This document shows positions 27,101-64,000 of a DNA stretch of 64,000 nt, one piece after another. A model generated the notes under the pieces. It was not told the DNA's origin. It made no database searches and saw nothing but the letters and a program-made list of their open reading frames with translations. Every line of letters begins with the position of its first letter. The first letter of the stretch is position 1. The DNA comes from Crambe crambe (lineage: Eukaryota > Porifera > Demospongiae > Poecilosclerida > Crambeidae): NCBI GenBank assembly GCA_963924555.1, contig OZ004588.1, positions 7,103,205-7,167,204 of the forward strand. The letters run 5' to 3'. The position numbers were made by a program, and so were the translations under genes.

Positions 27101-30100
27101 ACCACTCTTCAATGCTTCCCTGTAGTTGGCTACACAACATACATGTCATCCATAACTATGGTGGTGTGTGGTATATAAGCCTACATGATGAGCATCATGG
27201 AACAGACATGTAATGGCTTTGGAAATTGTGGTATAGTTTACAAACATACTACTACTGATTAGGCAGTCACATACAGACAGTGAGTCAACATTAAACAGAT
27301 CAGAGTGGCTTGATGGGAACCTCGGTTATCCAGACACCTTAGGCCAAAACTTTATCCAGATAAGTGAATAGTACAGTTTAATTATAGCTAGCACTATCCA
27401 CCTAGAACAGTGCACGTGCTACTAATGTGTTACTTATCATGTGCATGAGCAAAGCACTCTCTAACCTGGCCTGCTTTTTTCAAAAAATTTCATAAATTCA
27501 TTGCTATTGAGGTTTTGTATAAACAAGGTGAGGAAACCCGAGGTTCAACTATACTAAGTTCCTATGAATAGCTAATTAACAGGTATCATGCATTGTGTAC
27601 CTTCCAAAATTTCTTCTTCAGTGGGTTCATGTAGAGGCTGCATGAAGACAGGATAAAAATATTTTGGGGCAATGAAGGGTAGGAAAACAATTAGTATTTG
27701 ATAATGCTGAGATGAGACAGTTCAGAATAACTTACACCCTGAAGGAACCAAATTCAGCATCCATTCAGGATAATGGAGATATTAAAGGTAGGAAAACAAT
27801 CAGTGTGTAACAATGCTGAGATGAGACAGTTCAGAATAACTTACAGACTGAAGGAACCCATTTCAGCATCCAATCAGGATAATGGAGATATTGAAGGTAT
27901 AGGAAAACAATCAGTGTGTAACAATGTTGAGATGAGACAGTTCAGAATAACTTACAAACTGAAGGTACCAAATTCAGCATCCGTTCAGGATAATGGAGAT
28001 ATTGAAGGTATAGGAAAACAATCAGTGTGTAACAATGTTGAGATGAGACAGTTCAGAATAACTTACTAACTGAAGGTACCAAATTCAGCATCCGTTCAGG
28101 ATAATGGAGATATTGAAGGTATAGGAAAACAATCAGTGTGTAACAATGCTGAGATGAGACAGTTCAGAATAACTTACACGCTGAAGGAACCAAATTCAGC
28201 ATCCGTTCAGGATAATGGAGATATTGAAGGTATAGGAAAACAATCAGTGTGTAACAATGCTGAGATGAGACAGTTCAGAATAACTTACAAGCTGAAGGAA
28301 CCAAATTCAGCATCCGTTCAGGATAATGGAGATATTGAAGGTATAGGAAAACAATCAGTGTGTAACAATGCTGAGATGAGACAGTTCAGAATAACTTACC
28401 AGCTGAAGGAACCAAATTCAGCATCCGTTCAGGATAATGGAGATATTGAAGGTATAGGAAAACAATCAGTGTGTAACAATACTGAGATGAGACAGTTCAG
28501 AATAACTTACAGGCTGAAGGAACCAAATTCAGCATCCGTTCAGGATAATGGAGATATTGAAGGTATAGGGAAACAATCAGTGTGTAACAATGCTGAGATG
28601 AGACAGTTCAGAATAACTTACAGCCTGAAGGAACCAAATTCAGCATCCGTTCAGGATAATGGAGATATTGAAGGTATAGGAAAACAATCAGTGTGTAACA
28701 ATGCTGAGATGAGACAGTTCAGAATAACTTACAATCTGAAGGAACCAAATTCAGCATCCGTTCAGGATAATGGAGATATTGAAGGTATAGGAAAACAATC
28801 AGTGTGTAACAATGCTGAGATGAGACAGTTCAGAATAACGTACCTGCTGAAGGAACCAAATTCAGCATCCGTTCAGGATAATGGAGATATTGAAGGTATA
28901 GAAAAACAATCAGTGTGTAACAATGCTGAGATGAGACAGTTCAGAATAACTTACACGCTGAAGGAACCAAATTCAGCATCCATTCAGGATAATGGAGATA
29001 TTGAAGGTATAGAAAAACAATCAGTGTGTAACAATGCTGAGATGATACAGTTCAGAATAACTTACTTCCTGAAGGAACCAAATTCAGCATCCATTCAGGA
29101 TAATGGAGATATTGAAGGTATAGGAAAACAATCAGTGTGTAACAATGCTGAGATGAGACAGTTCAGAATAACTTACCCACTGAACGAGCCAAATTCAGCA
29201 TCCATTCAGGATAATGGAGATATTGAAGGTATAGAAAAACAATCAATGCTGAGATGAGACAGTTCAGAATAACTTACCCACTGAAGGAACCAAATTCAGC
29301 ATCCATTCAGGATAATGGAGATATTGATGGTATAGGAAAACAATAGGTATTTAACAATAGCTACTTAGTTCAGAATAACTTACTGTCTGAAAGAACTAGA
29401 AATAATGATTGTATAGGGTGAATGATCCATTCATATAATAGGAAAAAATAAATTATCTCATTAGCATGAATATCCATTTCACATGGTGTTTTTATTGGTA
29501 TGGTGCTGAACAGAGTGAATATGGAACCAATCTTTTTCAGAACTATCAATAACTTAGGGATGGTAAACAAATGGCTTTTCAGGGTCCTTACAGACTGTGG
29601 CCATTCATCAAGACATTCATGAAATAGGAAGTCATGTTTAATGAGTTAACTGCTAGTGGTAGCATTGTATACAAAAATTGTTTACTTCTTGACCCTTGAC
29701 CCTTGACCTAGCTCTTGCAGCTTGATAATTATATGAATGTTGAGTCAGCCATATTGGATAAACTTGCTTCATGAGAACTGAGTGGTATCAGATCGTAAGA
29801 AATAAAAATATGGTCTCTGTTAGCTTTGTTGCAATGCTACAGGTTACTGCCATAAAAGGTGCAGATATCCAGAATGGCATTGGAGTGACACCAGGATCAG
29901 TAACCCAGGCCAATTATGACACTGTGGTTGTTTTCCTGGAACCCAATGACAGCATTGGTCCCGGCCTCTTGATGCACAGGTTGACAACTTGACACTTGAC
30001 TAGTCAGCCCTCCCTGGCTGTCTACAATCACTGGACTGGACTGGTGGACTGCTTAAAAGCATGAAAACGCATTTATAGTGATGATGTGCATTATAGCTGC

Positions 30101-30390
30101 AACTCTCCAATGGCTGTTTTACTGCAGCATGCTAAGCTTAGCCATAGTTTGGCAAAAAAATTTGTGGAATGTAGGAAACAGAAGTGCAATAGGCAAGAGA
30201 GAGGGTCACTCTATTATTACAAAACTGCTTATTCTTCATCACAAGCTTTCTCACATGCGAAATAGTTGTATGTTTTAGGTCAGTCTAGTCCACCAGTCCA
30301 GTCCAGTGATTGTAGACAGCCATCCTCCCTTGTAAATAGTACAATTAGTAATTAATAGCTCACCCGCTTCTTCTCTTGTCTTTCAGCCAT
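24138..30390 (-). CDS. ROC-COR GTPase with C-terminal Death domain, copy 1, with 3-nt microexon array
   Basis: Predicted cytosolic ROCO GTPase. CDS exons: 30390-30364 (MAERQEKKR, start ACCATGG), 16 candidate 3-nt exons, 27637-27601 (PLHEPTEEEILE), 27129-25064, 25010-24769, 24715-24658, 24602-24578, 24529-24257, 24160-24138. All join in frame, giving 916 residues plus up to 16 from the array. Ignoring the array, the P-loop GAGGVGKS is at residues 44-51. The G3 motif VWDCGGQQVF and G4-like GTHGDD follow. Next are the COR domain (LTWVLFRKVLRRM...FYHDLAVFLHYDKIPSL...SDPQWLIKQIAKLLAL), a COR-B-like part (YLPPGFFTRL...RNRVSF) and a CDHC...CLRC zinc knuckle. The end is a six-helix Death domain (HHAVTQELENLNRKELMRVG...DMVAVWLR...TWDSLATALEAVGHTGVASRIR). 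The architecture suggests a death or immune signalling switch. Confidence 0.85.
27726..29400 (-). repeat. Array 1: 16 tandem units, each a candidate 3-nt microexon
   Basis: Unit period is 111 bp over most of the array. On the minus strand each unit reads TGCTGAATTTGGTTCCTTCAG, three variable bases, GTAAGTTATTCTGAACTG. Triplets (plus-strand start positions): 27736, 27845, 27956, 28067, 28178, 28289, 28400, 28511, 28622, 28733, 28844, 28955, 29066, 29177, 29278, 29384. In transcript order they encode TWWERQIAPLLRLFSG if all are included. Fourteen of the 16 triplets are different while the flanks are almost identical. Flanking coding exons end and begin in phase 0. Confidence 0.8.
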
Positions 30391-30611
30391 GGTAGCAACT
30401 AGCTTGTACACCTCAACAACTTGTTCCACTAGAAGAATAAGAGTTGCAAGCTAAGCAAAGTCACTCTGAAAGCAAGAAATCTCAGAACCCATTATCAACC
30501 TGTAAGAGACCTCCCTGGTGATCTTCAAATTAGTTATCCTTTGAGCTGTAGTTTTCAGATGCATGTCCTTATTAGCTAATGTGGGAGTGTTATTTTACAT
30601 ACACTCTGTCA

Positions 30612-31384
30612 GGGGCCTCACTATTCTACGGAACAAATGAAACAGAACGGTTCCGAGACCCTATTTCATATGGAATTTCACTGCGCATGTACAGGAGCAT
30701 CCCTGATTAGTAGCACCTGTGTGTGCATATTGGAGAATCCAGGAATAATGCTGAAGATTTAAGATTCTAAGCATACAAGGTTTTAGGAGGTAATATTGAG
30801 CGACAACTTTACTACATTTTGCATGCATGACACATCAACTTGATGATCTAATGGCTGCAGAGCAGCTAACCTTCTTTAGAAAGAGCATTTTCTCTGTTAG
30901 CTAACTCTTTACTATAAACACCAGGAAACAAGTAATAGGTACCTATCATGATGCTATACAAAATTCACTAGCATTATAATTTTAATAACTTCAAAAAAAA
31001 ATCTGCACAGGGCCAGAAAGCTATTTTAAATAGATTTCGAGTGTTGTATACTCCTATCATGTGCACAAACTAGTTTACAGCCAAGTATATGAACCAAGTA
31101 TACAAGAGTATACCAAGTATATGAACCAAGTATACAAGAGTTAATCACATGTACACTCAAAGTTTACACCAAAGTATACAGTACATAGCAGAGAATGTTC
31201 GAATACCACTTATCTCAGAGAGCACGTAAAGTTCTCAATGACAAGACAATGCATTACACACTTTTACCATCCTAGGTGTTAAACTCATATTGTGCATGCG
31301 CATACGCTTGTGCAGTGAAAATTCCGTTTGTGAAATAGGATCCTGGAACCGTTCCATTCTGTTCTGTTCCATAGAATGAGGCCC
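30612..31384. mobile_element. Inverted-repeat (MITE-like) element in module 1
   Basis: The left end (GGCCTCACTATTCTACGGAA...CGGTTCC...CCTATTTCAT...GAATTTCACTGCGCATG) is the diverged reverse complement of the right end (CATACGCTTGTGCAGTGAAAATTCC...GAAATAGGATCC...GGAACCGTTCC...GAATGAGGCCC). Terminal inverted repeats are about 80 bp and there is no ORF of note. It holds two copies of the 30-bp minisatellite expanded in module 2. No clear target-site duplication. Confidence 0.75.
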
Positions 31385-31474
31385 AAACTCAGCAAGTATA
31401 TGGAAGGGGAGGAGTTTTACACACCTCTAGTTTGCTTGCTACATACATACATACATACATACATACATACATAC

Positions 31475-32630: not shown

Positions 32631-35600
32631 TTAGGCTGTGTCTTTCTTATCTGCAAGGTACTCTGTAGGTTGAAAACATATATTTTGTAACCATAACAAC
32701 TACAGTATTAGTAGTTACTTGAACTTATCCCAGAGGCAACCCCTGTGTGACCAACGGCCTCTAGAGCTGCAGCTAGACTGGTCCAGGTGGTAGGTCCAGA
32801 GGCTTTAGTGACGTTATCATCTTTTCTCAACCATGCAGCCACAATTTCATTTGACAGACTCTCGCCTTCCATGTTTTGAAGGCGTGGATAGTACAACCCC
32901 AGTGCAGTACCCAGTCCTATCAGGTGTGCCTTGGTCAGGTTTTTCAAATGTCTAGTGACTGCATGGTGGTCATCCATTGTTAAAACCTGTGAAGGATCTA
33001 TCAAGACACAGACATGAACTAAAGATGATACAGCATTTTTATTATTTATTACCACTTTGTTGATGTTGTTTGGGTCTCTGCAAAAACAAACGAATGAAAA
33101 AACAGTAGCTAATTAAAAAGATTCAAACTTACTGAACTGCTGGTGTGTGATGATTCACCTTTCTCTTTAAATTCCAAATACTTAATTCTAGGTGGAATGA
33201 TATATTTTCTTTACTGCCTGAAACATGTCATGTGACTATAGTCCTTACTTTTCTGCCACTTCTTGCATGTCAATGCACTCAAGATGGTGGATGAGGTAAG
33301 GACGAGGAGGGACTCCAATCTGCTCCATTTCTTTGATCCAGCGATCAATCAGTATCACTGGATTTTGAACTCGATGTGTTGTCATCTCCAAGGCAATTTT
33401 AAAATCAGTGAATTTCTCCTCGAGTTTTTTAGCAACACCATTAATCTCGGAAATTGATATTGGACCAGTGGAACCATGGGACTAGAGAATCATATACACA
33501 TGTGCATGTTATCAATATGTAAGGCACCTATATATGATTATACAAACCTTGGGAATGGCTATTTTTAGCCAGTTTTTCTGATGTTTATTTAGTTCGTATA
33601 TCTTGTCCTCCTGGCAGCGTAAACACGACTTGGTGGTGTATTCTGAATCCAGGAGAACTAAATGCTCGGGAGCCGGAGTGTGGGGATTACTGATTTTGCA
33701 GTGGTCACAGGAAAAAGCAAAGGCCATTTTGATACCAGGGAACCATTGGCTGACTTGATCAGTGAAGCACCTTTGGATAGTGACAATTACTTTCTGACAA
33801 AGATCAATGAATATTGGGTTGCCACTTTCTCGTGGTTTTTCACGTACTAAATCGATCTGCACAGAATGCTTGCATTCAGAAATAGTCAGTGTGTCTAACT
33901 TTGAACCAGATTGACCCAGTGTGAAAGACACTCTATTTCTGTAGATGCCATGACCAAAGGCTATGCTATAGCCCTTCTCTGTAGAAAGAGCTGTGGCCAG
34001 TCGAATGAAGAACCCTGGGGGCAGATATTTGATATCTGGGAATACCAAATGCAATGGAGCAGCTCTCCTTTCAAGAGATGGAATATCAGTAGATGCACCA
34101 TTCTGTGTAACTGGAAGAGGAGGGAGTACAGAAGGAACAAAGTACTCTTTGCCCTTGAGATTATGCACTTTGCCACGAGTGTTGACTGGTGCCACTATAA
34201 GGAAATGCTTTAAGAGGTCAACTATGGACTGAGGTGGCAAGCATGGATTAAGCTCATCTGCTGTAGAGGCTTTCCATATTTCTGCATAGAGTGCTTCAAC
34301 AAGAATGCCACGATTTCTGAGAATGTCCCACAATCTTGGTGCTCCTTCTTTTTCAAAGGGTTCAAGAGCTAGAAGCTTGGCTATCTGCTTTATGAGCCAC
34401 TGAGGGTCAGCTATGACTATAGAGCTTAAGCTGGGGATCTTTTCATAGTGAAGAAACACAGCAAGGTCGTGATAAAATTTCAAGACACTGGGAACTGAAT
34501 CTTTGGGGATGGTGCAGGCTTCTGCAACTGCTACCACTTCTTTCAACGTGACATAGGGCTTGTTTTTAGCCATTCTACGCAACACCTTCCTGAAGAGAAC
34601 CCATGTAAGAGGTGTATCGACCTTCACTTCATTGCTGCAAGCAAAATCATTGACAATTTGGAGAACTCTTCTGTACCCAGGATCAGCATTCTCTCCTTGC
34701 CCAGCTGTTGTGTTGTCAATGATCACTCCTTTATCACGGACCAGGTAAGCATAATCTTTATCCTTGTACTCGGTGTACAGCAGCTCGAGAATCCTCTCTT
34801 TGTTAACTTGTACAGTAGGATCATCACCATGGGTACCAACAGGCAAGATACGAGGATATTCAGGCATTTTAGTGATGCTTTCATTGGCATTTTTGTCAGT
34901 GAGAGTGGCATCGATGCAAGACATCCATTGCTGAAGGAGCTCGATTGTACTTTGCTCCAAAATTTGCTGTGTGGCATGACCTTGATGATGAGATAGGGAT
35001 AAGCATCGCTCGTGTAGATCTGTTCGAGCATCGAACATGAGGAAGAAGATGGACTTCGATGTTAGAAAGGCTGGCAAGATGCAGAGAAAGACTTGCTGAC
35101 CACCACAATCCCACACATACAGGAACACTTCAGATTCAGGTGCTTGGATTTCAGGATGCTGCTTGGCTAATTCGATGATTTCTTCTATAATCCTTTGAGC
35201 TTCAGATATTTCAGGGCTACATCTCGTATGAAAGAAATGTGATGTTGCAAAAGCTTGGATCCATTTTACAAAACGTGATGATTCAGTTTCACCATGTCTT
35301 ACATCGTATACCAGACGCACTAGCCCAACCAGTTCATTAGTTTCATCATCTTCAGTGACCGGCACCCAATACCCTCCACTAACACTTCCACCCTTTGCTG
35401 TATGCGTGCTGACGTCCCTTGAGGCCCCACCTTGTCCAGGTTGGAAAGTGCTGAGGTCAGCCATTTGAGTGCTGTTAACATTAGCTTCATCTGGAAGTGG
35501 TTTGTTCATCATTCCACGCTGGAAACTGCTCTTGCCTACTCCTCCAGCACCAAGGTGCACGATGCGTGCATAAGCCACACTGACTACACCACTCTTCAAT

Positions 35601-38600
35601 GCTTCCCTGTAGTTGGCTACATAACACAGTACATGTCATCCATAACTATGGTGGTGTGTGGTATATAAGCCTACATGATGAGCATCATGGAACAGACATG
35701 TAATGGGTTTGGAAATTGAGGTATAGTTACTAACATACTACTACTGATTAGGCAGTCACATACAGACAGTGAGTCAACATAATTAAACAGATCAGAGTGG
35801 CTTGATGGGAACCTCGGTTATCCACACACCTTAGGCTAAAATTTTATTCGGATAAGTGAATAGTACAGTTTAATTATAGCTAGCACTATCAACAGTGCAC
35901 GTGCTACTAATGATCATGTGCATGAGCAAAAAATTCATTGCCAGTGCACGTATTTCTAAAACCAGATAAATTAGATTTCTGTCTAAACAAGGTGAGGAAA
36001 CCCGAGGTTCCACTGTACAAAGTTCCTCTGAATAGCTGATTAACAGGTATAATGCACTATGTACCTTTCAATATTTCTTCTTCAGTTGGTGGAGGCTATA
36101 TGAAGACAGGATAACCATTTTGGGGAATGAAAAGTGTAAGTATAGGAAAACAATTAGTATTTGATAATGTTGAGATGAGACAGTTTAGAATAACTTACAG
36201 ACTGAAGGAACCAAATTCAGCATCCGTTCAGAATAATGGAGATATTGAAGGTATAGGAAAACAATCAGTGTGTAACAATGCTGAGATGAGACAGTTCAGA
36301 ATAACTTACCCACTAAAGGAAACAAATTCAGCATCCGTTCAGAATAATGGAGATATTGAAGGTATAGGAAAACAATCAGTGTGTAACAATGCTGAGATGA
36401 GACAGTTCAGGATAACTTACACCCTGAAGGAACCAAATTCAGCATCCGTTCAGGATAAGGTATAGGAAAACAATCAGTGTGTAACAATGATGAGATGAGA
36501 CAGTTCAGAATAACTTACACCCTGAAGGAACCAAATTCAGCATCCGTTCAGGATAATGGAGATATTGAAGGCATAGGACAACAATCAATGTGTAACAATG
36601 CTGAGAAGAGACAGTTCAGAATAACTTACAAACTGAAGGAACCAAATTCAGCATCCATTCAGGATAATGGAGATATTGAAGGTATAGGAAAACAATCAGT
36701 GTGTAACAATGCTGAGATGAGACAGTTCAGAATAACTTACAGGCTGAAGGAACCAAATTCAGCATCCATTCAGGATAATGGAAATATTAGAAAACAATTA
36801 GTATTTGATAATGTTGAGATGAGACAGTTCAGAATAACTTACTGACTGAAGGAACCAAATTCAGCATCCGTTCAGGATAATGGAGATATTGAAGGTATAG
36901 GAAAACAATCAGTGTGTAACAATGCTGAGATGAGACAGTTCAGAATAACTTACATCCTGAAGGAACCAAATTTAGCATCCGTTCAGGATAATGGAGATAT
37001 TGAAGGTATAGGAAAATGTAAAAATGCTGAGATGAGGCAGTTCAGAATAACTTACAATCTGAAGGAACCAAATTCAGCATCCGTTCAGGATAATGGAGAT
37101 ATTGAAGGTATAGGAAAACAATCAGTGTGTAACAATGCTGAGATGAGACAGTTCAGGATAACTTACACCCTGAAGGAACCAAATTAAGCATCCGTTCAGG
37201 ATAAGGTATAGGAAAACAATCAGTGTGTAACAATGATGAGATGAGACAGTTCAGAATAACTTACATCCTGAAGGAACCAAATTCAGCATCCGTTCAGGAT
37301 AATGGAGACATTGAAGGTATAGGAAAACAATCAGTGTGTAACAATGCTGAGATGAGACAGTTCAGAATAACTTACAGGCTGAAGGAACCAAATTCAGCAT
37401 CCATTCAGGATAATGGAGATATTGAAGGTATAGGAAAACAATTAGTATTTGATAATGTTGAGATGAGACAGTTCAGAATAACTTACAGACTGAAGGAACC
37501 AAATTCAGCATCCGTTCAGGATAATGGAGATATTGAAGGTATAGGAAAACAATCAGTGTGTAACAGTGTTGAGATGAGACAGTTCAGAATAACTTACATC
37601 CTGAAGGAACCAAATTCAGCATCCGTTCAGGATAATGGAGATATTGAAGGTGTAGGAAATAATCAGTGTGTAACAATGCTGAGATGAGACAGTTCAGAAT
37701 AACTTACATCCTGAAGGAACCAAATTCAGCATCCATTCAGGATAATGGAGATATTGAAGGTATAGGAAAACAATTAGTATTTGATAATGTTGAGATGAGA
37801 CAGTTCAGAATAACTTACAGACTGAAGGAACCGAATTCAGCATCCGTTCAGGATAATGGAGATATTGAAGGTATAGGAAAACAATCAGTGTGTAACAATG
37901 CTGAGATGAGACAGTTCAGAATAACTTACAAACTGAAGGAACCAAATTCAGCATCCGTTCAGGATAATGGAGATATTGAAGGTATAGGAAAATAATCAGT
38001 GTGTAACAATGCTGAGATGAGACAGTTCAGAATAACTTACTTCCTGAAGGAACCAAATTTAGCATCCGTTCAGGATAATGAAAATAATCAGTGTGTAATA
38101 ATGCTGAGATGAGACAGTTCAGAATAACTTACAGGCTGAAGGAACCAAATTCAGCATCCATTCAGGATAATGGAGATATTGAAGGTATAGGAAAACAATC
38201 AGTGTGTAATAATGCTGAGATGAGACAGTTTAGAATAACTTACACCCTGAAGGAACCAAATTCAGCATCCATTCAGGATAATGGAGATATTGAAGGTATA
38301 GGAAAACAATTAGTATTTGATAATGTTGAGATGAGACAGTTCAGAATAACTTACACGCTGAAGGAACCAAATTCAGCATCCGTTCAGGATAATGGAGATA
38401 TTGAAGGTATAGGAAAACAATCAGTGTGTAACAATGTTGAGATGAGACAGTTCAGAATAACTTACAAACTGAAGGAACCAAATTCAGCATCCGTTCAGGA
38501 TAATGGAGATATTGAAGGTATAGGAAATAATCAGTGTGTAACAATGCTGAGATGAGACAGTTCAGAATAACTTACACGCTGAAGGAACCAAATTCAGCAT

Positions 38601-40804
38601 CCATTCAGGATAATGGAGATATTGAAGGTATAGGAAAACAATCAGTGTGTAACAATGCTGAGATGAGACAGTTCAGAATAACTTACAATCTGAAGGAACA
38701 AAATTCAGCATCCGTTCAGGATAATGGAGATATTGAAGGTATAGGAAAACAATCAGTGTGTAACAATGCTGAGATGAGACAGTTCAGAATAACTTACAGG
38801 CTGAAGGAACAAAATTCAGCATCCATTCAGGATAATGGAGATATTGAAGGTATAGGAAAACAATTAGTATTTGATAATGTTGAGATGAGACAGTTCAGAA
38901 TAACTTACAGACTGAAGGAACCAAATTCAGCATCCATTCAGGATAATGGAGATATTGAAGGTATAGGGAAACAATCAGTGTGTAACAATGCTGAGATGAG
39001 ACAGTTCAGAATAACTTACAAACTGAAGGAACCAAATTCAGCATCCGTTCAGGATAATGGAGATATTGAAGGTATAGGAAAACAATCAGTGTGTAACAAT
39101 GCTGAGATAAGACAGTTCAGAATAACTTACATCCTGAAGGAATCAAATTCAGCATCCGTTCAGGATAATGGAGATATTGAAGGTATAGGAAAACAATTAG
39201 TATTTGATAATGTTGAGATGAGACAGTTCAGAATAACTTACAGACTGAAGGAACCAAATTCAGCATCCGTTCAGGATAATGGAGATATTGAAGGTATAGG
39301 AAAACAATCAGTGTGTAACAATGCTGAGATGAGACAGTTCAGAATAACTTACATCCTGAAGGAACCAAATTCAGCATCCGTTCAGGATAATGGAGATATT
39401 GAAGGTATAGGAAAACAATTAGTATTTGATAATGTTGAGATGAGACAGTTCAGAATAACTTACAGACTGAAGGAACCAAATTCAGCATCCATTCAGGATA
39501 ATGGAGATATTGAAGGTATAGGAAAACAATCAGTGTGTAACAGTGTTGAGATGAGACAGTTCAGAATAACTTACTTCCTGAAGGAACCAAATTCAGCATC
39601 CGTTCAGGATAATGGAGATATTGAAGGTATAGGAAAACAATCAGTGTGTAACAATGCTGAGATGAGACAGTTCAGAATAACTTACAATCTGAAGGAACCA
39701 AATTCAGCATCCGTTCAGGATAATGGAGATATTGACGGTATAGGAAAACAATAGGTATTTAACAATAGCTACTTAGTTCAGAATAACTTACTGTCTGAAA
39801 GAACCAGAAATAATGATCGTATAGGGTGAATGATCCATTCATATAAAAGGAAAAATAAATTGCATGAATATCCATTTCACATGGTGTTTTTATTGGTATG
39901 GTGCTGAACAGAGTGAATATGGAACCAATCTTTTTCAGAACTATCAATAACTTGGGGATGGTAAACAAATGGCTTTTCAGGGTCCTTACATACAGACTGT
40001 GGCCATTCATCAGGACATTCATCAAATAGGAAGTATTGTTATGTTTAATGAGTTAACTGCTAGTGGTAGCATTGTATACAAAAATTGTTTACTTTTTGAC
40101 CCTTGACCCTTGACCCTTGACCTAGCTCTTGCAGCTTGATAATTATAAGAATGCTGAGTCAGCCATATTGGATAAACTCTTAACTGCATACTTCATGAGA
40201 ACTTGGTGGTATCAGATCGTAAGAAATAATAATATGGTCTCTGTTAGCTTTGTTGCAATGCTACAGGTTACTGCCATAAAAGGTGCAGATATCCAGAATG
40301 GCATTGGAGTGACACCAGGATCAGTAACCCAGGCCAATTATGACACTGTGGTTGTTTTCCTGGAACCCAATGACAGCATTGGTCCCGGCCTCTTGATGCA
40401 CAGGTTGACAACTTGACACTTGACTAGTCAGCCCTCTACAATCACTGGACTGGACTGGTGGACTGCTTAAAAGCATGAAAACGCATTTATAGTGATGATG
40501 TACATTATAGCTGCAACTCTCCAATGGCTGTTTTACTGCAGCATGCTAAGCTTAGCCATAGTTTGGCAAAAAAATTTGTGGAATGTAGGAAACAGAAGTG
40601 CAATAGGCAAGAGAGAGGGTCACTCTATTATTACAAAACTGCTTATTCTTCATCACAAGCTTTCTCATATGCGAAATAGTTGTATGTTTTAGGTCAGTCT
40701 AGTCCACCAGTCCAGTCCAGTGATTGTAGACAGCCATCCTCCCTTGTAAATAGTACAATTAGTAATTAATAGCTCACCAGCTTCTCCTCTCGTCTTTCAG
40801 CCAT
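32631..40804 (-). CDS. ROC-COR GTPase with C-terminal Death domain, copy 2, with 34 candidate microexons
   Basis: Same plan as copy 1. Start exon 40804-40778 (MAERREEKL, Kozak ACCATGG), 34 candidate 3-nt exons, 36095-36065 (PPPTEEEILK), ROC-COR exon 35616-33548, the PISVSEINGVAKKLE exon near 33480-33250, two small exons, Death exon 32997-32719, and a last exon ending TAA 32631-32633 (KYLADKKDTA). Key motifs GAGGVGKS, WDCGGQQ and GTHGDD are intact, as are the CDHC...CLRC knuckle and the Death domain (NLTKAHLIGLGTALGLYYPR...EIVAAWLRKDD). The Death exon uses a slightly different donor (TTCAA then GTAACT), giving GISSKYLADK. In this copy the G1-G3 interval has a short deletion relative to copy 1 (FATSHFFHTRCSPE replaces GIALAASRLSRTGSNPE). 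Confidence 0.85.
36160..39800 (-). repeat. Array 2: 34 tandem units, each a candidate 3-nt microexon
   Basis: Same minus-strand core (CCTTCAG, 3 nt, GTAAGTTATT) in all 34 units. Triplets start at 36199, 36310, 36421, 36519, 36630, 36741, 36843, 36954, 37056, 37167, 37265, 37376, 37487, 37598, 37708, 37819, 37930, 38041, 38133, 38244, 38355, 38466, 38576, 38687, 38798, 38909, 39020, 39131, 39242, 39353, 39464, 39575, 39686, 39792. Encoded residues: S7, D6, F4, P4, G4, I3, R2, E2, T1, W1; no stops. Two unit subtypes occur: most have CAGTGTGTAACAATGCTGAG, eight have TTAGTATTTGATAATGTTGA in its place. Confidence 0.8.
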
Positions 40805-52400: not shown

Positions 52401-53401
52401 TATCTCACTAGCAAGAATATCCATTTCACATGGTGTTTTTATTGGTATGGTGCTTAACAGAGTGAGTACTAATATGGAACTCATAACTGTCAATAACTTA
52501 GGGATGGTAAACAAATGTAAAATCTCAGGGTCCTTACAGACTGTGGCCATTCATCAAGACATTCATCTCAAAATGAAATAGGAAGTATTGTTATGTTTAA
52601 TGAGTTAACTGCTAGTGGTAGCATTGTATACAAAAATTGTTTACTTCTTGACCCTTGACCCTTGACCTAGCTCTTGCAGCTTGATAATTATATGAATGAA
52701 ATGGATAACTCTAACTACATGCTTTGATTGTAAGGTTACTGCCATAAAAGGTGCAGATATCCAGAATGGCACTGGAGTGACACCAGGATCAGTAACCCAG
52801 ACCAATTATGACATTGTGAAAAGTGGATGTTTTCCTGGAACCCAATGAATAGACCATGACATTTAGTGCATTAGTCCTGGCCCCTTGATGCACAGGTTGA
52901 CAACTTGACAACTGAAACTCAACTAGTTAGCCCTCCCTGGCTGTCTACAATCCCTGGAATGGACTGGTGGACGAGCATGAAAATGCATTTATAGTGATGA
53001 TATGCATTATATATAATCCTTCCCTCAAAAGACTCATCCCTCTTCAACTCTCTCTCTTTTTTTTTGTAAACAATTTTCTGTTCAACACCAGGATTATCCA
53101 CTAGCCAAAAAAAAATTGTGGAATGTAGGATACAGGAGTGCAATAGGCAAATCTTCCAAGTTCAAGAGAGGGGGCCACTCTATTATTGCAAAACTGCTGA
53201 ACCAGACTGTTAATGCTCACAAGCTTTCTCACATGCAAAATAGTTGCAAGACAGTGATTCTAATTCCTATTTTTAGGTCAGTCCAGTCCACCAGTCCAGT
53301 CCAGTGATTGTAGACAGCCGTCCTCCCTTTGAATAGTGCATGCAACTAGAAATAGCTAATTAATAGCTCACCAGCTTCTTCTCTTGTCTTCTTTCAGCCA
53401 T
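43420..53401 (-). CDS. ROC-COR GTPase with C-terminal Death domain, copy 3, with 49 candidate microexons and a proline-rich insert
   Basis: Start exon 53401-53372 (MAERRQEKKL, ACCATGG), 49 candidate 3-nt exons, 47053-47017 (PPHEPTEEEILE), ROC-COR exon 46568-44293, a PISVPEINGVAKEF exon near 44207-43968, the KVKYSEFAKKAESP-type exon, the Death exon, and a last exon ending TGA 43420-43422 (KYISDKRETA). All GTPase motifs are intact. After VPSVLPPLP there is an insert of roughly 70 residues, rich in Pro/Ser, with repeats of SHERRPSTPNDTPP. The small RPNQDQQK exon of copy 1 is deleted and the old Death-exon acceptor is lost (AG to CG). A CACAG twelve bases further in restores the frame at LLTMDDHRAV. 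Confidence 0.83.
47110..52345 (-). repeat. Array 3: 49 tandem units, each a candidate 3-nt microexon
   Basis: The 49 triplets encode A17, G9, Y6, F5, R5, L3, K2, V1, I1; no stops, and 46 of 49 are NNT codons. First triplets are at 47145, 47256, 47350, 47461 and last at 52015, 52126, 52228, 52332. Higher-order structure: a four-unit block (A, A, Y, G) repeats at 435-bp spacing (48431, 48866, 49301). A block spanning 49301-50163 recurs exactly 2065 bp later at 51366-52228. Some units are shortened by loss of the GGAGATATT segment, yet the acceptor-3 nt-donor core is kept. Confidence 0.8.
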
Positions 53402-54467: not shown

Positions 54468-54556
54468 AAATACAGCAACCACTAGCTATATGGAAGGGGG
54501 AGGAGTTTTACACCCCTCTAGCTAGCTTGCTACATACATACATACATACATACCTG

Positions 54557-55709: not shown

Positions 55710-58700
55710 TTAGGCTGTGTCTTTCTTATCTGCAAGGTACTCTGTAAGTTGAAATATATTTTATAACCATAACTACTACAGTATTAGTAGTTACTTGAAC
55801 TTATCCCAGAGGCAACCCCTGTGTGACCAATGGCCTCTAGAGCTGCAGCTAGACTGGCCCAGGTGGGAGGTCCAGTCACTTTAGTGACACTGTCAGCTTT
55901 TATCAACCATGCAGCCACCATCTCATCTAGCAAGCTTTCCCCTCCGATTTTTTGAAGGCGTGGATAGCACAACCCCAGTGCAGTACCCAGTCCAATCAGG
56001 TCTGCCTTCGTCAGATTTTTCAATTGACTAGTGACTGCATGGTGGTCATCCGTTGCTAAAACCTGTGAAGAATCTATCAAGACACAGGCATAAAGATGAT
56101 AGCTACAGTTCTCAAATAATTATTTTACCACTTTGTTGATGTTGTTTGGGTCTCTGCAAAAACAGACAAATGAAAAATGGTAGCTAATTAAAAAGATTCA
56201 AACTTACTGAACTGCTGGTGTGTGATGATTCACCTTTCTCTTTAAATTCCAAATACTCAATCCTAAGGAGAATGACATATCACACAGCTGGCTTTATATA
56301 TTAATATAGTCTTTACTTTTCTGCCACTTCATGCATATCAATGCACTCAAGGTGGTGGATGAGGTAAGGACGAGGAGGGACTCCAATCTGCTTCATTTCT
56401 TTGATCCAGCGATCAATCAGTATCACTGGATTTTGAACTCGATGTGTTGTCATTTCCAAGGCAATTTTAAAATCAGTGAATTTCTTATGATTTTCCTCGA
56501 GTTTTTTAGCAACACCATTAATCTCGGAAATTGATATTGGACCAGTGGAATCATGGGACTAGAGAATCATATACACATGTGCATGTTATCAATATGTAAG
56601 GCACCCATATATGATTATACGAACCTTGGGAATGGCTATTTTTAGCCAGTTTTTCTGATCTTTGTTTAGTTCGTATATCTTGTCCTCCTGGCAGCGTAAA
56701 CACGACTTGGTGGTGTAATCAGACTCCAGGAGGACTAAATGCTCGGGAGTGTGGGGATTACTGGTTTTGCAGTGGTCACAGGAAAAAGCAAAGGCCATTT
56801 TGATACCAGGGAACCATTGGCTGACTTGATCAGTGAAGCACCTTTGGATAGTGACAATTACTTTCTGACAAAGATCAATGAATATTGGGTTGCCACTTTC
56901 TCGTGGTTTTTCACGTACTAAATCGATCTGCACAGAATGCTTGCATTCAGAAATAGTCAGTGTGTCTATCTTTGAACCAGATTGACCCAGTGTGAAAGAC
57001 ACTCTATTTCTGTAGATGCCATGACCAAAGGCTATGTCATAATCATGTTCCTGAGAGAGAGTGGTGGCTAGTCGGGTGAAGAACCCTGGGGGCAAATATT
57101 TGATATCTGGGAATACCAAATGCAATGGAGCAGCTCTCCTTTCAAGAGATGGAATATCAGTAGATGCACCATTTTGTGTAACTGGAAGAGGAGGGAGTAC
57201 AGAAGGAACAAAGTACTCTTTACCCTTAAGATTATGCACTTTACCACGAGTGTTGACTGGTGCCACTATAAGGAAATGCTTTAATAGGTCAACTATGGAC
57301 TGAGGTGGCAAGGGATTAAGCTCATCTGCTGTAGAGGCTTTCCAAATTTCAGCATAGAGTGCTTCAATAAGAATACCACGATTTCTGAGAATGTCCCACA
57401 ATTTTGGTGCTCTCACTTTTTCAAAGCCTTCAAGAGCTAGAAGCTTGGCTATCTGCTTTATGAGCCACTGAGGGTCAGCTATGACTATAGAGCTTAAGCT
57501 GGGGATCTTGTCATAGTGAAGGAACACAGCAAGGTCGTGATAAAACTTCAAGACACTGGAAACTGAATCTCTGGGGATGGTGCAGGCTTCTGCAACTGCT
57601 ACCACTTCTTTCAACGTGAAATAAGGCTTGTTTTTAGCCATTCTACGCAACACCTTCCTGAAGAGAACCCATGTAAGAGGTGTATTGACCTTCATTTCAT
57701 TGCTGCAAGCAAAATCATTGACAATTTGGAAAACTCTTCTGTACCCAGGATCAGCATTCTCTCCCTGCCCAGCTGTTGTGTTGTCGATGATCACTCCTTT
57801 CTCACGGACCAGGTGAGCATACTCTTTATCCTTGTACTCGGTGTACAGCTGCTCAAGAATGCTCTCTTTGTTAGCTTGCACAGAAGGATCATCACCATGG
57901 GTACCAACAGGCAAGATACGAGGATATTCAGGCATTTTAGTGATGCTTTCATTGGCACTTTTGTCAGTGAGAGTGGCATCAATGCAAGACATCCATTGCA
58001 GAAGGAGCTCTATTGTACTTTGCTCCAGAACTTGCTGTGTGGCATGACCTTGATGGTGAGAAAGGGATAAGCATCGCTCGTGTAGATCCTTTCGAGCATC
58101 AAACATGAGGAAGAACATGGACTTTGATGTTAGAAAGGCTGGCAGGATGCAGAGAAAGACTTGCTGGCCACCACAATCCCACACATACAGGAACACTTCA
58201 GATTCAGATGCTTGGATTTCAGGATGCTGCTTGGCTAATTCGATGATTTCTTCTATGATCTTCTGAGCTTCAGATATTTCGGGGCTACTTCTCGTACGAG
58301 AGAGATGTGATGCAGCCAAAGCAATTCCTACTTGGATCCATTTTACAAAACGTGATGATTCAGTTTCTCCATGTCTTACATCGTATACCAGACGCACTAG
58401 CCCAACCAGTTCATTAGTTTCATCATCTTCAGTGACCGGCACCCAATACCCTCCACTAATACTTCCATCCTTTGCAGTATGTGTGCTGACGTCCCTTGAG
58501 GCCCCACCTTGTCCAGGTTGGAAAGTGCTGAGGTCAGCCATTTGAGTGCTGTTAACATTAGCTTCATCTGGAAGTGGTTTGTTCATCATTCCACGCTGGA
58601 AACTGCTCTTGCCTACTCCTCCAGCACCAAGGTGCACGATGCGTGCATAAGCCACACTGACTACACCACTCTTCAATGCTTCCCTGTAGTCAGCTACATA

Positions 58701-61700
58701 ACATACATGTCTGACAGTCATCCATTTAACTACTACAAGGGAAATGCAAAGCATTGTGGCAAGTGAAGCTTCAGTCAATGACTTGCATAAGACAATCCAA
58801 ACTGGAAGAACGTAAATCTATATAAGACTTATAACAGCTGATGAGTGTAATAAGTGATTTATTCTTACAGTGCATAGCAACTAACAAGTCTAATGAGTGC
58901 ACATGTAAAGCGGGCGATTCCGAAAGGCACGCAGGGCAATTCCAAACGGTTCAATATTTCTGAAACCACTGAGACTTTTTAGCTCAAATTTGGAGGAGAG
59001 AATCAGTTTGGAATTGCCCCACTTTACCTTATGTCTGTAGGAACCTGTAATACTTCTACCACGAGCACTTAGATAAGCCTAGCAGGCTACCAGACCTACA
59101 AATAACTAATGAACTTTAACAAACAACTCAATAATTAAGCTTTGCCTATCATGGCTAGTCTGCACATGCGCAGTAGAGCACGAGAAAAATTTTCGCACAT
59201 GCTCAATACTTGCATTAGGCAAAATGGAATCTGCTTGTCCTTCAGTCCCAAGATAAGGAGTTACTGTAGTGGAATGTATACGGCTCGTCTATAGTCTTGG
59301 CCCCCAGGCACTCTTTTGTGACCTGTCTAAAAGAGAGCCTGGTATCAGTTATTTGCGTGTTAGCCTCGGAATTCCGAGGCTTCCTTCATACACTCTCCGT
59401 AAATGGATGTTTATTCTGAGCTAAATGATATAATAAGCCTAAAGACAGTCTTGTTCACTGCAGTAGCGAATGGTATGGAAAACTGGACTAAAATAATTTC
59501 ACTTGTACATGTATACTACACCCATGCGCAAACAATTGATACCAGGCTCTATTAAATTTTCAATAGAGCCTGGGGACGAGGCTGGCAAGGCTCGTCTATG
59601 GGATAAATATATTAGTGGGCATGGCCTGTAAGAATAATATACTCGATCCTCTAGTGGCTCACTTCGCTCACAATAATGGTGTGTGGTGGCTATATAGGCC
59701 TAATTACCATTTCCTAGACTATCACACACAGTAAGTTAACAATAACCATGGTAACTAATTAATTAATTACTGGCAGCATGTTTTGTGTACCTTCCGATAT
59801 TTCTTCTTTAGTGGGCACAGGTGGAGACTGCATGATCTAGAAATAATTATATCATTCATCATGTCCATGAAAACAAATAATGCAGAGAAGAGATATATAC
59901 AAAATAACTTACAGGCTGAAGTAATTCATTTCAGCATCCATTCAAGATATCAAAGGTATAGGCAAAACAATCAGTGTGTAACAATAGCTACTGAGATGAG
60001 AGTTCAGAATAACTTACATGCTGAAGGAAACAAATTCAACATTCATTCGGGATAATGAAAACAATAAGTGTGTAACAATGCTGAGATGAGACAGTTCAGA
60101 ATAACTTACAATCTGAAGGAATCAAATTCAGCATCCGTTCAGGATAATGGAGATATTGAAGGTATAGGAAAACAATCAGTGTGTAACAATGCTGAGATGA
60201 TAACTTACATGCTGAAGGAACCGGTTTCAGCATCCATTCATAATAATTAAAATATTGATGAGATGAGATAATTCAGGATAACTTACAAGCTGAAGGAACC
60301 CATTTCAGCATCCATTCAAGAGATATTGAAAGTGTAGGAAAATCAGTGTGTAACAATGCTGAGATGAGACAGTTCAAAATAACTTACATGCTGAAGGAAA
60401 CAAATTCAACATCCATTGAGATATTGAAGGTGTAAAAAAATAAATGGTGAGATGAGAAAGTCCTGAATAACTTACAGACTGAAAGAACCAAATTCAGCAT
60501 CCATTCAGGATGATATATATAAATATAGAAAACAATCAGTGTGTAGAGATAAGGCAGTTCAGAATAACTTACACGCTGAAGGAACCCAATATTCAGAATC
60601 CATTCAGGATGATTGAGGTATACGAAAACAATCAGTGTGTAACAATACTGTGATGAGACGGTTCATAATAACTTACATCCTGAAACAACCAAATTCAGCC
60701 GATAATGGATAGGGAAACAATCAATGTGTAACAACACTGAGATGAGATAGTTCAGAATAACCTACTTCCTGAAGAAGCCAAATTCAGCATCCAATCAGGA
60801 TAATGAAGGTAGAGGAAAACAATCAGTGTGTAACAATGCTGAGATATGTCAGTTCAGAATAACTTACACGCTGAAGGAAACAAATTTAACATCCATTAAG
60901 ATATTGAAGGTGTAAAAAAACAATCAGTATGGAATACTGGTGAGATGAGAAAGTCCTGAATAACTTACAGACTGAAGGAACTAAATTCAGCATCCATTCA
61001 GGATGATATATAATAAATATAGAAAACAATCAGTGTGTAGAGATAAGGCAGTTCAGAATAACTTACACGCTGAAGGAACCCAATATTCAGAATCCATTCA
61101 GGATGATTGAGGTATACGAAAACAATCAGTGTGTAACAATACTGTGATGAGACGGTTCATAATAACTTACATCCTGAAACAACCAAATTCAGCCGATAAT
61201 GGATAAGGAAACAATCAATGTGTAACAACACTGAGATGAGATAGTTCAGAATAACTTACTTCCTGAAGAAGCCAAATTCAGCATCCAATCAGGATAATGA
61301 AGGTAGAGGAAAACAATCAGTGTGTAATAATGCTGAGACAAGACAGTTCAGAATAACTTACATCCTGAAGGAACCAAATTCAAAATCCATTCAGAATAAT
61401 GGAGATATTGAAGGTATAGGAAAACAATCAGTGGTATATGACACTGAGATGAGACAGTTCAGAATAACTTACCCACTGAAGGAAGGATATGATGGAGATA
61501 TAGAAGGTATATGTGAAAATAATCAGTGTGTAACAATGCTGAGATGAGACAGTTCAGAATAACTTACATCCTGAAGGAACACCTTTCAGCATTCATTCAG
61601 ATACATTGAAGGTATAGGAAAACAATCAGTGTGTAACAATGTTGAGATGAGACTGTTCAAAATATCTTACTTCCTGAAGAAACCAATAACAGCATCATGC

Positions 61701-64000
61701 AATTCAGGATAATAGAGATATTGAAAACAATCAGTGTGTAACAATGCTAAAGATGAGGCAGTTCAGAATAACTTACATTCTGAAGGAACCCAATATTCAG
61801 CATCCATTCAGGATGATTGAGGTATATGAAAATAATCAGTGTGTAATAATACTCTGATGAGATGGTTCATAATAACTTACATCCTGAAACAACCAAATTC
61901 AGCCGATAGTGGATAGGGAAACAATCAATGTGTAACAACACTGAGATGAGATAGTTCAGAATAACTTACTTCCTGAAGAAGCCAAATTAAGCATCCAATC
62001 AGAATAATGAAGGTAGAGGAAAACAATCAGTGTATAACAATGCTGAGATAAGACAGTTCAGAATAACTTACATCCTGAAGAGCATCCATTCAGGATAATG
62101 AAAATATTGAAGGTATAGGAAAAAATTAGTGTGTAACATACTGAGATGAGACAGTTCAGAATAACTTACAGACTGAAGTAACCCATATCAGCATCCATTC
62201 AGGATAATGGAGATATTGAAAGTATAGGAAAACATGTAACAATGTTGAGATGAGACAGTTCAGAATAACTTACATCCTGAAGGAACCAAATTCAGCATGG
62301 AGATATAGGGAAACAATCAGTGTGTAACAATGCTGAGATGAGACAGTTCAGAATAACTTACAACCTGAAGGAACCAAATTCAGCATCCATTCAGGATAAT
62401 GGAGATATTGAAGGTATAGGAAAACAATCAGTGTGTAACAATGCTGAGATGAGATGGTTCAGATTAACTTACATACTGAAGGAACCCATTTCAGCATCCA
62501 TTCAGGATAATGGAGATGTTGAAGGTATAGGAAAACAATCATTGTGTAACAATGCTGAGATGAGACAGTTCAGAATAACTTACATCCTGAATGAACCAAA
62601 TTCAGATCCATTCAGGATAATGGAGATATTTAAGGTATAGGAAAACAATCAGTGTGTAACAATGCTGAGATATGTCAGTTCAGAATAACTTACACGCTGA
62701 AGGAAACAAATTCAGCATCCATTAAGATATTGAAGGTGTAAAAAAATAATCAGTATGGAATAATGGTGAGATGAGAAAGTCCTGAATAACTTACATCCTG
62801 AAGGAACCAAATTCAGCATGGAGATATAGGAAAACAATCAGTGTGTAACAATGCTGAGATGAGACAGTTCAGTATAACTTACATCCTGGAGGAACCCAAT
62901 TCAGCATCCATGCAGGATAATCAAGATATCGAAGGTATATGAAAACAATCAGTGTATAATGATACTGAGATGAGACATGTTCAGAATAACTTACATCCTG
63001 AAGGAACCAAATTCAGCATTCATTCAGGATAACAAAGGTATAGGAAAACAATCAGTGTGTAACAATGCTGAGATGAGATGGTTCAGATTAACTTACAGGC
63101 TGAAGGAACCCATTTCAGCAAGATATTGAAGGTATAGGAAAACAATCAGTGTGTAACAATGCTTAGATATGTCAGTTCAGAATAACTTACACGCTGAAGG
63201 AAACAAATTCAGCATCCATTAAGATATTGAAGGTGTAAAAAAATAATCAGTACGTAATACTGGTGAGATGAGAAAGTCCTGAATAACTTACAGACTGAAG
63301 GAACCAAATTCAGCATCATGCAATTCAGGATAATGGAGATATTGAAAACAATTAGTGTATTATAACTAACAATGCTGAGACAAGAGAGTTTGAAATAACT
63401 TACAGGCTGACGAAACCCATTTCATCATCCAATCAGATTAATGGAGATATTGAAAACATGTAACAATGCTGAGATGAGACAGTTCAGAATAACTTACAGA
63501 CTGAAGGAACCAAATTCAGCATGGAGATATAGGAAAACAATCAGTGTGTAATAATGCTGAGATGAGTATAACTTACATCCTGCAGGAACCCATTTCAGCA
63601 TCCATTCAGGAGATGGAAATATTGAAGGTATAGGAAAACAATCAGTGTGTAACGATACTGAGATGAGACAGTTCAGAATAACTTACATACTGAAGGAACC
63701 CATTTCAGCATCCATTCAGGATAATGGAGATATCGAAGGTATAGGAAAACAATCAGTGTGTAACAATGCTGAGATGAGACAGTTCAGAAGAACTTACATC
63801 CTGAAGGAACTAAATTCAGCATGGAGATATTGAAAAACAATCAGTGTATAACAATGTTGAGATGAGACAGTTCAGAATAACTTACATTCTGAAGGAATCA
63901 AATTCAGCATGGATATATAGGAAAACAATCAGTGTGTAACAATGCTGAGATGAGACAGTTCAGTATAACTTACATCCTGGATGAACCCAATTCAGCATCC
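55710..64000 (-). CDS. ROC-COR GTPase with C-terminal Death domain, copy 4; 5' end beyond window
   Basis: Exons seen: at least 42 candidate 3-nt exons (59913-63976 and beyond), 59827-59791 (SPPVPTKEEISE), ROC-COR exon 58693-56625, the PISISEINGVAKKLEE exon near 56560-56320, small exons, the Death exon near 56070-55795 (NLTKADLIGLGTALGLCYPR...EMVAAWLIKAD), and a last exon ending TAA 55710-55712. GAGGVGKS, WDCGGQQ, GTHGDD, the COR block and the CDHC...CLRC knuckle are intact. The intron between 59791 and 58693 is about 1.1 kb, against about 0.45 kb in the other copies, because of inserted inverted-repeat elements. The start exon lies to the right of the window. Confidence 0.83.
58904..59028. 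mobile_element. Short inverted-repeat element in ROCO copy 4 intron
   Basis: Left end TGTAAAGCGGGCGATTCC and right end GGAATTGCCCCACTTTACC are imperfect inverted repeats about 125 bp apart. Absent from the matching intron of copies 1-3, so probably a small MITE inserted after the duplication. Confidence 0.5.
59283..59602. mobile_element. Second inverted-repeat insertion in ROCO copy 4 intron
   Basis: AGAGCCTGGTATCAGTTATT (near 59332) pairs with the reverse complement of AATTGATACCAGGCTCT (near 59535), and AGGCTCTATTAAATTTTCAA then TAGAGCCT is a local palindrome. Flanks GGCTCGTCTAT occur near both ends (about 59282 and 59590). No coding capacity. Also absent from copies 1-3. Confidence 0.5.
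59895..64000 (-). repeat. Array 4: at least 42 decayed tandem units keeping the 3-nt microexon core
   Basis: Unit length varies from about 75 to 125 bp through many small deletions and insertions, so no plus-strand frame persists. All 42 units still have CAG or TCAG, exactly 3 nt, then GTAAG (one GTAGG) on the minus strand. Encoded residues: D14, R5, S5, E4, P3, H3, N2, Y2, I1, L1, W1, V1; no stops, 37 of 42 are NNT. Where the acceptor context has mutated (triplets at 62883, 63404, 63577, 63974) the change still leaves CAG before the triplet. A three-unit block (R, D, E) recurs at 60573-60768, 61067-61262 and, with the first codon altered, 61777-61972. The array runs off the window. Confidence 0.78.

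Follow-up and report, generated by a model that had tools for sequence, protein, structure and literature searches.

Arrays of candidate one-codon exons in four neighbouring Roco GTPase genes of a sponge

On the minus strand of the 64,000-nt stretch of Crambe crambe DNA analysed here (the window), four neighbouring Roco genes hold 141 tandem units, split 16, 34, 49 and at least 42, each of which consists of an acceptor, exactly three variable bases and a GTAAGT-type donor. What such rows of splice-like signals encode, if anything, is the question addressed below. The explanation we favour, at a probability of about two in three, is that the units are three-nucleotide, one-codon exons that would be spliced in order to give a fast-diversifying segment in front of the GTPase domain. 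The anatomy of the arrays, their reading frames, the conservation of the splice signals, the hypervariability of the triplets and the codon signature are read directly from the DNA, whereas splicing itself, in-order inclusion, the founder unit and positive selection as the cause of the variation are what we infer from them.

Anatomy of the arrays and their flanking exons

The unit length is most often 111 nt, and the introns between units have a median length of 108 nt (range 75-109 nt). Exact matches to TTCAG-NNN-GTAAGT number 132 on the minus strand, against none on the plus strand. Wrap-around alignment to the 111-nt unit, which left out partial cycles at the array ends, gave 16, 34, 48 and 42 complete units with AG and GT in 140/140, and an extra founder-like unit of gene 3 (TAG-ATA-GTAAGT at 52334-52332) brings the total to 141. 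Together with a masked alignment (see below), these counts bear out the four arrays and 141 units of the original prediction. At the sequence level, three nucleotides separate AG and GT in every one of the 141 units. Imperfect signals include three donors (one GTACGT, one GTAGGT and one GTAAGA) and two acceptors (one ending in TTTAG, one in TTAG). The base preceding GT is T in 121 of the 141 units, and the branch-like motif lies only ~16 nt from AG. Outside the arrays, minus-strand CAG-NNN-GTRAG occurs twice, in neither case within the window's first 27.6 kb, and a looser unit scan matched two sites beyond the arrays, at 19877 and 546.

The flanking exons are compatible with any number of one-codon exons between them (Table 1). 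The P..PTEEEIL-type exon and the ROC exon are present in all four genes, and the start exon was found in three, as the gene 4 counterpart would fall past the window end. The ROC exon is in the proposed phase, and both the start and the P..PTEEEIL-type exons have the predicted phase 0, so that a direct join is in frame, as is one with any number of triplets; the claim that every subset of three-nucleotide exons keeps the frame thus holds. Intron retention, on the other hand, would bring in an in-frame stop in 130/136 cases. Array 3 further contains units copied in blocks along with their triplets (lag 4), as well as an internal repeat.

Table 1. Features of the four Roco genes, in window coordinates; array units are candidate microexons
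Gene	Feature	Position	Strand	Remark
1	Start exon MAERQEKKR	30364..30390	-	phase 0 end at GTGAGC
1	Array, 16 putative three-nt microexons (ACA as presumed founder + 15), predicted peptide TWWERQIAPLLRLFSG	27736..29386	-	
1	Downstream exon PLHEPTEEEILE + 1 nt	27601..27637	-	phase 0 to 1
1	ROC-COR exon	24902..27129	-	low end is the open frame limit, splice site unmapped
1	C-terminal death-like domain	24243..24509	-	limits approximate
2	Start exon MAERREEKL	40778..40804	-	
2	Array, 34 putative microexons, predicted peptide TIESDSDFSPIRFRGPEFSDDSPDGIDSPFGGWS	36199..39794	-	
2	Downstream exon PPPTEEEILK + 1 nt	36065..36095	-	in frame, 6 nt less than gene 1
2	ROC-COR exon	33512..35616	-	low end is the open frame limit
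2	Death-like domain	32708..32977	-	limits approximate
3	Start exon MAERRQEKKL	53372..53401	-	30 nt
3	Array, presumed founder ATA (52332-52334) + 48 putative microexons, predicted peptide IRRLFGAAKAAGYARAAGYARRLFGAAKAAGYAAGYAAGYAVGYFGLFF	47145..52334	-	internal ~2,065-nt duplication
3	Downstream exon PPHEPTEEEILE + 1 nt	47017..47053	-	
3	ROC-COR exon	44278..46568	-	low end is the open frame limit
3	Death-like domain	43517..43780	-	limits approximate
4	Array, at least 42 putative microexons, predicted peptide DNDYDSPSRPDDDRDYVDSDEDNEDWDEDRSREDRSHLHIHP	59913..64000	-	continues past window end
4	Downstream exon SPPVPTKEEISE + 1 nt	59791..59827	-	
4	ROC-COR exon	56589..58693	-	low end is the open frame limit
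4	Death-like domain	55787..56053	-	limits approximate

Fixed splice signals, hypervariable triplets and codon signature

To keep the splice sites and triplets from guiding unit finding, we masked their columns (acceptor, triplet, donor) before aligning the units. In this splice-blind alignment AG and GTA fall in register in 16/16, 34/34, 49/49 and 41/42 units (140/141), and the lone exception, near 60209, reflects a one-base alignment shift with TTCAG-CAT-GTAAGT intact. The intron columns of array 4 have a mean identity of only 0.813 in the same masked alignment. In each of the four arrays, no columns vary more than the first two of the triplet. Parsimony on a tree built from introns only requires 53, 59 and 16 changes at triplet positions 1, 2 and 3, compared with a mean of 2.44 and a maximum of 7 for intron columns on the same tree. 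Array by array, positions 1 and 2 compare with the highest intron column as 8 and 8 versus 2, 14 and 17 versus 4, 11 and 14 versus 2, and 13 and 13 versus 6; change at these two positions is concentrated 22-24 fold. Counting pairs within and between arrays, 152 pairs of units show no difference in their introns; position 1 differs in 46% of these pairs and position 2 in 48%. For such pairs inside single arrays the numbers are smaller and the picture is mixed: position 1 differs in 43% (n=7), 50% (n=10), 18% (n=72, array 3) and 0% (n=1), the low value in array 3 indicating that its recently copied blocks have mostly retained their triplets.

At the third base, T is used by 121 of the 127 residues that have an NNT codon, whereas 56.3 would be expected from the codon use of the ROC exons (z 12). 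A third base other than T is found in 20 triplets, and in 15 of them the encoded amino acid differs from that of the NNT form (E in 7, W in 4, K in 2, Q and L in one each), compared with 8.8 expected from within-array shuffles (P=0.0012, pooled, an optimistic value because the units are related by descent). Taken per array, the same test gives P values of 0.055, 0.31, 0.17 and 0.08, none of them significant alone. None of the 141 triplets is a stop, which is uninformative, since shuffles also give none in 27% of trials (P=0.27).

The predicted peptides have little in common between paralogues, their alignments being at or near shuffle level in all six pairs; the best, between genes 2 and 4, scores 30 versus 25.8 (sd 4.6) for shuffles. 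The ROC-COR exons are under constraint in all six pairs (dN/dS 0.28-0.33), and the flanking introns of the paralogues are 85-98% alike. Across the four Roco arrays, the encoded amino acids seem to change far faster than the surrounding DNA.

Splicing in order and its alternatives

Under the favoured explanation, each unit would be a phase-0 coding exon of three nucleotides followed by a short intron, and an array would have been born from a founder microexon by tandem duplication. While transcription proceeds, the growing first exon would join the first acceptor, and the joined triplet would directly abut a strong GTAAGT donor, which in turn would be spliced to the next acceptor. Such a stepwise 5'-to-3' walk, resembling recursive splicing, would gain one codon per step and, with all units used, place segments of 16, 34, 49 and at least 42 residues after MAER... 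and before the P..PTEEEIL.. linker, on the N-terminal side of the GTP-binding ROC domain. Selection would hold the splice signals fixed and push the encoded residues apart, so that paralogues with closely similar introns come to carry unrelated peptides. A run of 16 to 49 consecutive three-nucleotide exons is, to our knowledge, without precedent for the spliceosome. Moreover, U1 pairing prefers G before GT, and the T of most units counts against the proposal, as do the short distance from the branch-like motif to AG, the mixed values from pairs inside single arrays and the weak codon test in each array alone. Fly ratchet points reportedly need a cryptic exon downstream, according to one study (PMC8605326), and this requirement also counts against stepwise splicing, since a three-nucleotide exon supplies none.

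The original prediction had proposed diversification codon by codon, through the splicing of different subsets of the one-codon exons; were these subsets to vary between cells or individuals, a combinatorial peptide library would result. The units do look like phase-0 three-nucleotide exons, but in-order inclusion is simpler than the choice of subsets, which we regard as unlikely. Every subset would be in frame, and the near-identical sites offer the spliceosome no obvious preference for the neighbouring unit; against this, AG and GT are kept in all units, which would be unneeded were the units optional, and no conserved RNA structure for choosing units was found. The latter statement rests on an alignment of 36/42 array-4 units with one each from arrays 1-3, which has no consensus base pairs, and on the fold of one unit, in which a hairpin that pairs TGCTGAA with TCAGCAT round the microexon does not outperform shuffled sequences (z of -0.21 for the unit and -0.63 for its 71-nt core). 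A docking/selector type of exon choice, as in Dscam, is thus unsupported. Exon skipping is, in addition, reportedly the least common mode in Amphimedon (PMC4432959). A related and rather improbable proposal is a germline-encoded library diversified by splicing, in which cells or individuals would splice different ordered subsets of rewritable one-codon rows and so equip a death-domain-like GTPase with distinct tags for recognition or assembly, sensing of self/non-self or of pathogens being one example of their use.

Three further explanations each fit worse. If the arrays were a minisatellite in an ordinary intron, with splice-like sites unused or acting as decoys, the mRNA would join MAER... 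to the P exon, which is in frame; an unused repeat, however, should not keep AG and GTA while its other columns decay, and neither the 22-24 fold concentration of change in two columns nor the third-base signature would be expected, so we consider this quite improbable. Invasion by near-identical introners between existing codons would explain why the introns are alike and the triplets are not, with no need for rapid codon change, the triplets being old coding sequence. It would need insertion exactly every 3 nt and would predict neither the excess of third-base T nor the duplication of triplets along with their units in blocks, as in the lag-4 copies and the 2,065-nt repeat of array 3; introners, furthermore, form dispersed copies in unrelated genes, whereas within this window none was found outside the arrays, which leaves the idea scarcely plausible. 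The least credible reading, to which we give almost no weight, is a plus-strand protein of 37-residue repeats with one hypervariable residue. Plus-strand open frames do reach 705 codons, but a period divisible by 3 produces long open frames by itself, and the frame is broken at 44/136 spacings and holds a stop in 50/136, including 32/41 in array 4, where the minus-strand signals are intact.

A longer exon, with a second acceptor-like CATCTCAG as its start and the same donor as its end, was considered and rejected, as it would shift the frame in most of the units that have the exact motif and leave an intron of ~29 nt. Exact CATCTCAG occurs in 83/140 units, the commonest exon length would be 82 nt (53 units), and 62/83 lengths are 1 mod 3.

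Comparison with known systems and protein context

Known microexons are single or few per gene. They measure 3-30 bp according to one abstract (PMC9929638) and, like the candidate exons of the arrays, are very short and have strong splice sites on either side; the candidates differ in that 16 to 49 of them follow one another, each of exactly 3 nt, with near-identical introns and hypervariable content. The micro-exon genes of Schistosoma likewise have many short, mostly in-frame exons per gene and diverse products; one paper (PMC10526429) gives exons of 6-81 bp in the main text and 3-81 in the abstract, mostly 15 bp, introns of 0.1-5 kb and secreted proteins. Unlike that type, all array exons would be 3 nt with introns of 75-109 nt, and the Roco GTPases have no evident signal peptide: inspection by eye found no hydrophobic core in the charged MAERQEKKR, MAERREEKL and MAERRQEKKL. 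Recursive splicing resembles the arrays in that an acceptor lies directly before a donor regenerated after the first splice, but at ratchet points AG and GT are juxtaposed and nothing is added, according to the study cited above (PMC8605326), whereas the arrays have three bases in between and would add one codon per step.

A tandem repeat with hypervariable codons is also found in PRDM9, where the whole repeat is translated within one exon, whereas in the arrays translation would be limited to the variable codon, the constant remainder being spliced out. For the PRDM9 zinc-finger minisatellite, several reports (PMC3890296 among them) describe positive selection at few amino-acid positions of a tandem coding repeat, and the arrays follow this evolutionary pattern alone, with variation at few codon positions of a uniform repeat and no zinc finger. 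No tandem array of three-nucleotide exons appeared among the titles and abstract openings listed, in part as the top of longer lists, in a search of the open PubMed Central literature. Pattern scans of IMG/VR and of a prokaryotic genome collection returned one single-copy match each, with no further CAG-NNN-GTAAG at either locus; one match per 257 billion bases is about the chance level for 20 fixed bases.

Should transcripts confirm the favoured explanation, the spliceosome would assemble a protein segment one codon at a time, which would test the lower limit of exon definition and offer stepwise splicing a substrate that occurs in nature. Peptides would, moreover, evolve here by a new route, with the code kept as separate, duplicable one-residue cassettes, so that the length and each residue could change without risk to the frame. 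Read mapping and annotation readily miss three-nucleotide exons, so that further genes of this kind could have gone unnoticed.

With regard to the proteins, Pfam Roc and COR-A exceed the curated cut-offs in all four open reading frames, which places them in the Roco family, and gene 3, the sole gene searched, matches Roco proteins and LRRK2 in the PDB at the sequence level. The Death domain of the original prediction is a tentative label. A model of the domain has six helices (pLDDT 72), and the top 16 Foldseek matches are death-fold proteins (FADD, ASC, NLRP3 and others), a weak structural match with a best E of 0.99 and none below 0.001. Sequence searches gave no death-domain match: a Pfam death family was absent in the domains tested (3/4), gene 1 has only sub-threshold Rap1_C and HI1480, and the gene 3 domain had one unrelated PDB match (E 0.4). 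Divergence so extreme and restricted to codons suggests an arms race or an identity function for this GTPase and its death-like domain, and the segment may act in recognition or in the assembly of a signalling GTPase. By charge and hydropathy, peptides 2 and 4 fall on the disordered side and peptides 1 and 3 on the folded side, a split that argues for no single physical class of peptide.

Arrays and host genes

In the 64,000-base window, the minus strand has 132 exact matches to TTCAG-NNN-GTAAGT and the plus strand has none. The sites are grouped in four arrays, 111 nt being the most frequent distance between neighbours, with one array (arrays 1-4) in each of the four tandem Roco genes (genes 1-4). 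Wrap-around alignment to the unit, which leaves out partial cycles at array ends, gave 16, 34, 48 and 42 complete units, and an extra founder-like unit in gene 3 (TAG-ATA-GTAAGT) brings the total to the 141 originally predicted; the 42 units are a lower bound, as array 4 reaches the window end and runs on. The claim of exactly three variable bases between a near-consensus acceptor and donor was likewise borne out. With acceptor, triplet and donor all masked from the aligner, AG and GTA were in register in 140 of 141 units (16/16, 34/34, 49/49 and 41/42 in arrays 1-4), and the sole off-register unit reflects an alignment shift, its TTCAG-CAT-GTAAGT being intact. In array 4, columns outside the mask have a mean identity of 0.813, and only 6 of 96 reach 0.99 or more. 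A few units deviate at outer signal bases (GTACGT, GTAGGT and GTAAGA donors; TTTAG and TTAG acceptors). A loose scan, which missed two real units, returned two acceptor-triplet-donor-like sites outside the arrays. Some 29 nt downstream of each donor there is a second acceptor-like motif, CATCTCAG, which matches exactly in 83 of 140 units; exons from it would be frame-shifting in most cases.

The large exons of all four genes match Pfam Roc and COR-A above curated cut-offs. The start exons of genes 1 (MAERQEKKR, 27 nt), 2 (MAERREEKL, 27 nt) and 3 (MAERRQEKKL, 30 nt) end in phase 0 at GTGAGC and are followed, after a 5' intron of about 1 kb, by a first candidate microexon (ATA in gene 3, ACA in the other two), which has a non-repeat upstream flank and precedes the repeats. 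The downstream exon (P..PTEEEIL.. or PTKEEIS; 31 nt in gene 2 and 37 nt in genes 1, 3 and 4) is entered in phase 0 and left in phase 1, an end matched by the first two bases of the ROC exon. Since the phases match, the frame is kept with any number of triplets, zero included, as predicted, on the evidence of the start exons of genes 1-3 and the downstream and ROC exons of genes 1-4. The gene 3 ROC-COR ORF also carries a proline/serine-rich repeat insertion (SHERRPSTPNDTPP...) after a VPSVLPPLP stretch, absent from those of genes 1, 2 and 4. Long plus-strand open frames with a 37-residue repeat (up to 705 codons) are expected because the unit length is divisible by 3, and could be mis-annotated as genes.

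Window coordinates of individual features
Feature	Position	Strand
Loose-scan sites outside arrays	19877; 546	
ORF with zf-MYND finger	7620-8078	minus
Separate tandem repeat	22831-23028	
Second acceptor-like motif, range	27736-64000	minus
37-residue-repeat open frames	28070-29257; 38531-39754; 48056-51980	plus
Gene 3 ROC-COR ORF	44278-46584	minus
Array 3	47147-52230	minus
Off-register unit, array 4	near 60209	minus

Variation and probable coding use of the triplet

In every array, the two columns with the highest variability are codon positions 1 and 2. Among 152 unit pairs without intron difference, both within and between arrays, position 1 differs in 46% and position 2 in 48%. Within single arrays 1-4, position 1 differs in 43% of 7, 50% of 10, 18% of 72 and 0 of 1 pairs, the array 3 value indicating that recent block copies there mostly retain their triplets. 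An internal duplicate of some 2,065 nt and blocks of four units (A-A-G-Y) show that array 3 grows by block duplication, with triplets carried along. On an intron-only tree, parsimony change counts were 53, 59 and 16 for codon positions 1, 2 and 3; the 108 intron columns had a mean of 2.44 changes (maximum 7), and the excess at positions 1 and 2 was seen in each array separately. Scrambling of the tree by recombination between units was rejected, since other polymorphic columns would also score high, and their counts are low. Genes 1 and 2 share 98.5% identity in the 5' intron (953 aligned bases), and comparison of their ROC-COR exons gives a dS of 0.17 and a dN/dS of 0.29; the peptides deduced from their triplets nevertheless align no better than shuffles. 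The remaining flanking-intron comparisons gave 85.0 to 95.7% identity.

The third base is T in 121 of 141 triplets and C in none. Fifteen of the 20 triplets without a final T specify a different residue from the NNT form (E 7, W 4, K 2, Q 1, L 1; E, W, K and Q have no NNT codon), and the remaining five are silent relative to NNT (ACA twice, ATA, CTG, TCA). Third-base shuffles within arrays gave a mean of 8.8, and 0.12% of 5,000 trials reached at least 15, a pooled P that is optimistic because units are related by descent; this supports the claim that the triplet acts as a codon. Single arrays 1-4 gave P values of 0.055, 0.31, 0.17 and 0.08, none significant alone, and omission of array 3 gave 13/17 (P 0.004). 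If the triplets were remnants of an older coding sequence that introns had interrupted, their third bases should resemble those of genes 1-4; NNT is used for 121 of 127 residues having such a codon, versus 56.3 expected from 2,668 ROC codons, which speaks against this origin. The pattern fits an NNT cassette that was duplicated and then underwent selected changes.

Candidate splicing mechanism

Introns between units measure 75-109 nt (median 108), and retention of a single intron brings an in-frame stop in 130 of 136 cases, which makes whole units unlikely as ordinary exons. Two complexes flanking 3 nt simultaneously would probably be hard to fit, and we therefore propose stepwise, 5'-to-3' splicing along the array, in which every joining step would leave a fresh GTAAGT behind the newly added codon. 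This process would be similar to ratchet-point recursive splicing as outlined in PMC8605326, but would add one codon per step. The same paper states that ratchet points in flies depend on a cryptic exon, and this is a problem for the analogy.

The original prediction proposed splicing of different subsets. We prefer inclusion of all units in order, because AG and GT are retained in every unit, those of array 4 included, and because small introns and little exon skipping are reported for Amphimedon (PMC4432959). Consensus folding of 36 of the 42 array 4 units plus one unit each from arrays 1-3 revealed no conserved RNA structure able to select among units.

Deduced peptides and known systems

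The deduced segments of genes 1-4 have net charges of +1, -6, +7 and -13; that of gene 2 has many S, D, F, P and G residues, that of gene 3 contains internal repeats and an abundance of A, G, Y and R, and that of gene 4 is acidic. They stop about 35 residues (counted by eye) ahead of the P-loop motif GAGGVGKS. As to the proposed Death domain, the C-terminal exon is predicted to form six helices (pLDDT 72) and its 16 best structural matches are all death-fold proteins, but the scores are weak (the best E is 0.99, and none falls below 0.001); sequence searches (Pfam, PDB sequences) yielded no death-domain match. The likeliest role of the segment would be that of a recognition or assembly tag in an immune or cell-death pathway.

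Four known systems resemble the arrays in one feature each and lack others: microexons, Schistosoma micro-exon genes, ratchet-point splicing and the PRDM9 zinc-finger minisatellite. No array of 3-nt exons was found among the matches listed in the open-access literature; given transcript proof, such arrays would be categorically new. Elsewhere in the window, a tandem repeat with periods of 17, 32 and 48 (CTTCTTTAATCAGGACA...) lies past the Roco cluster on its 3' side, separate from the arrays, and another ORF encodes a zf-MYND finger (Pfam E 7.5e-10).
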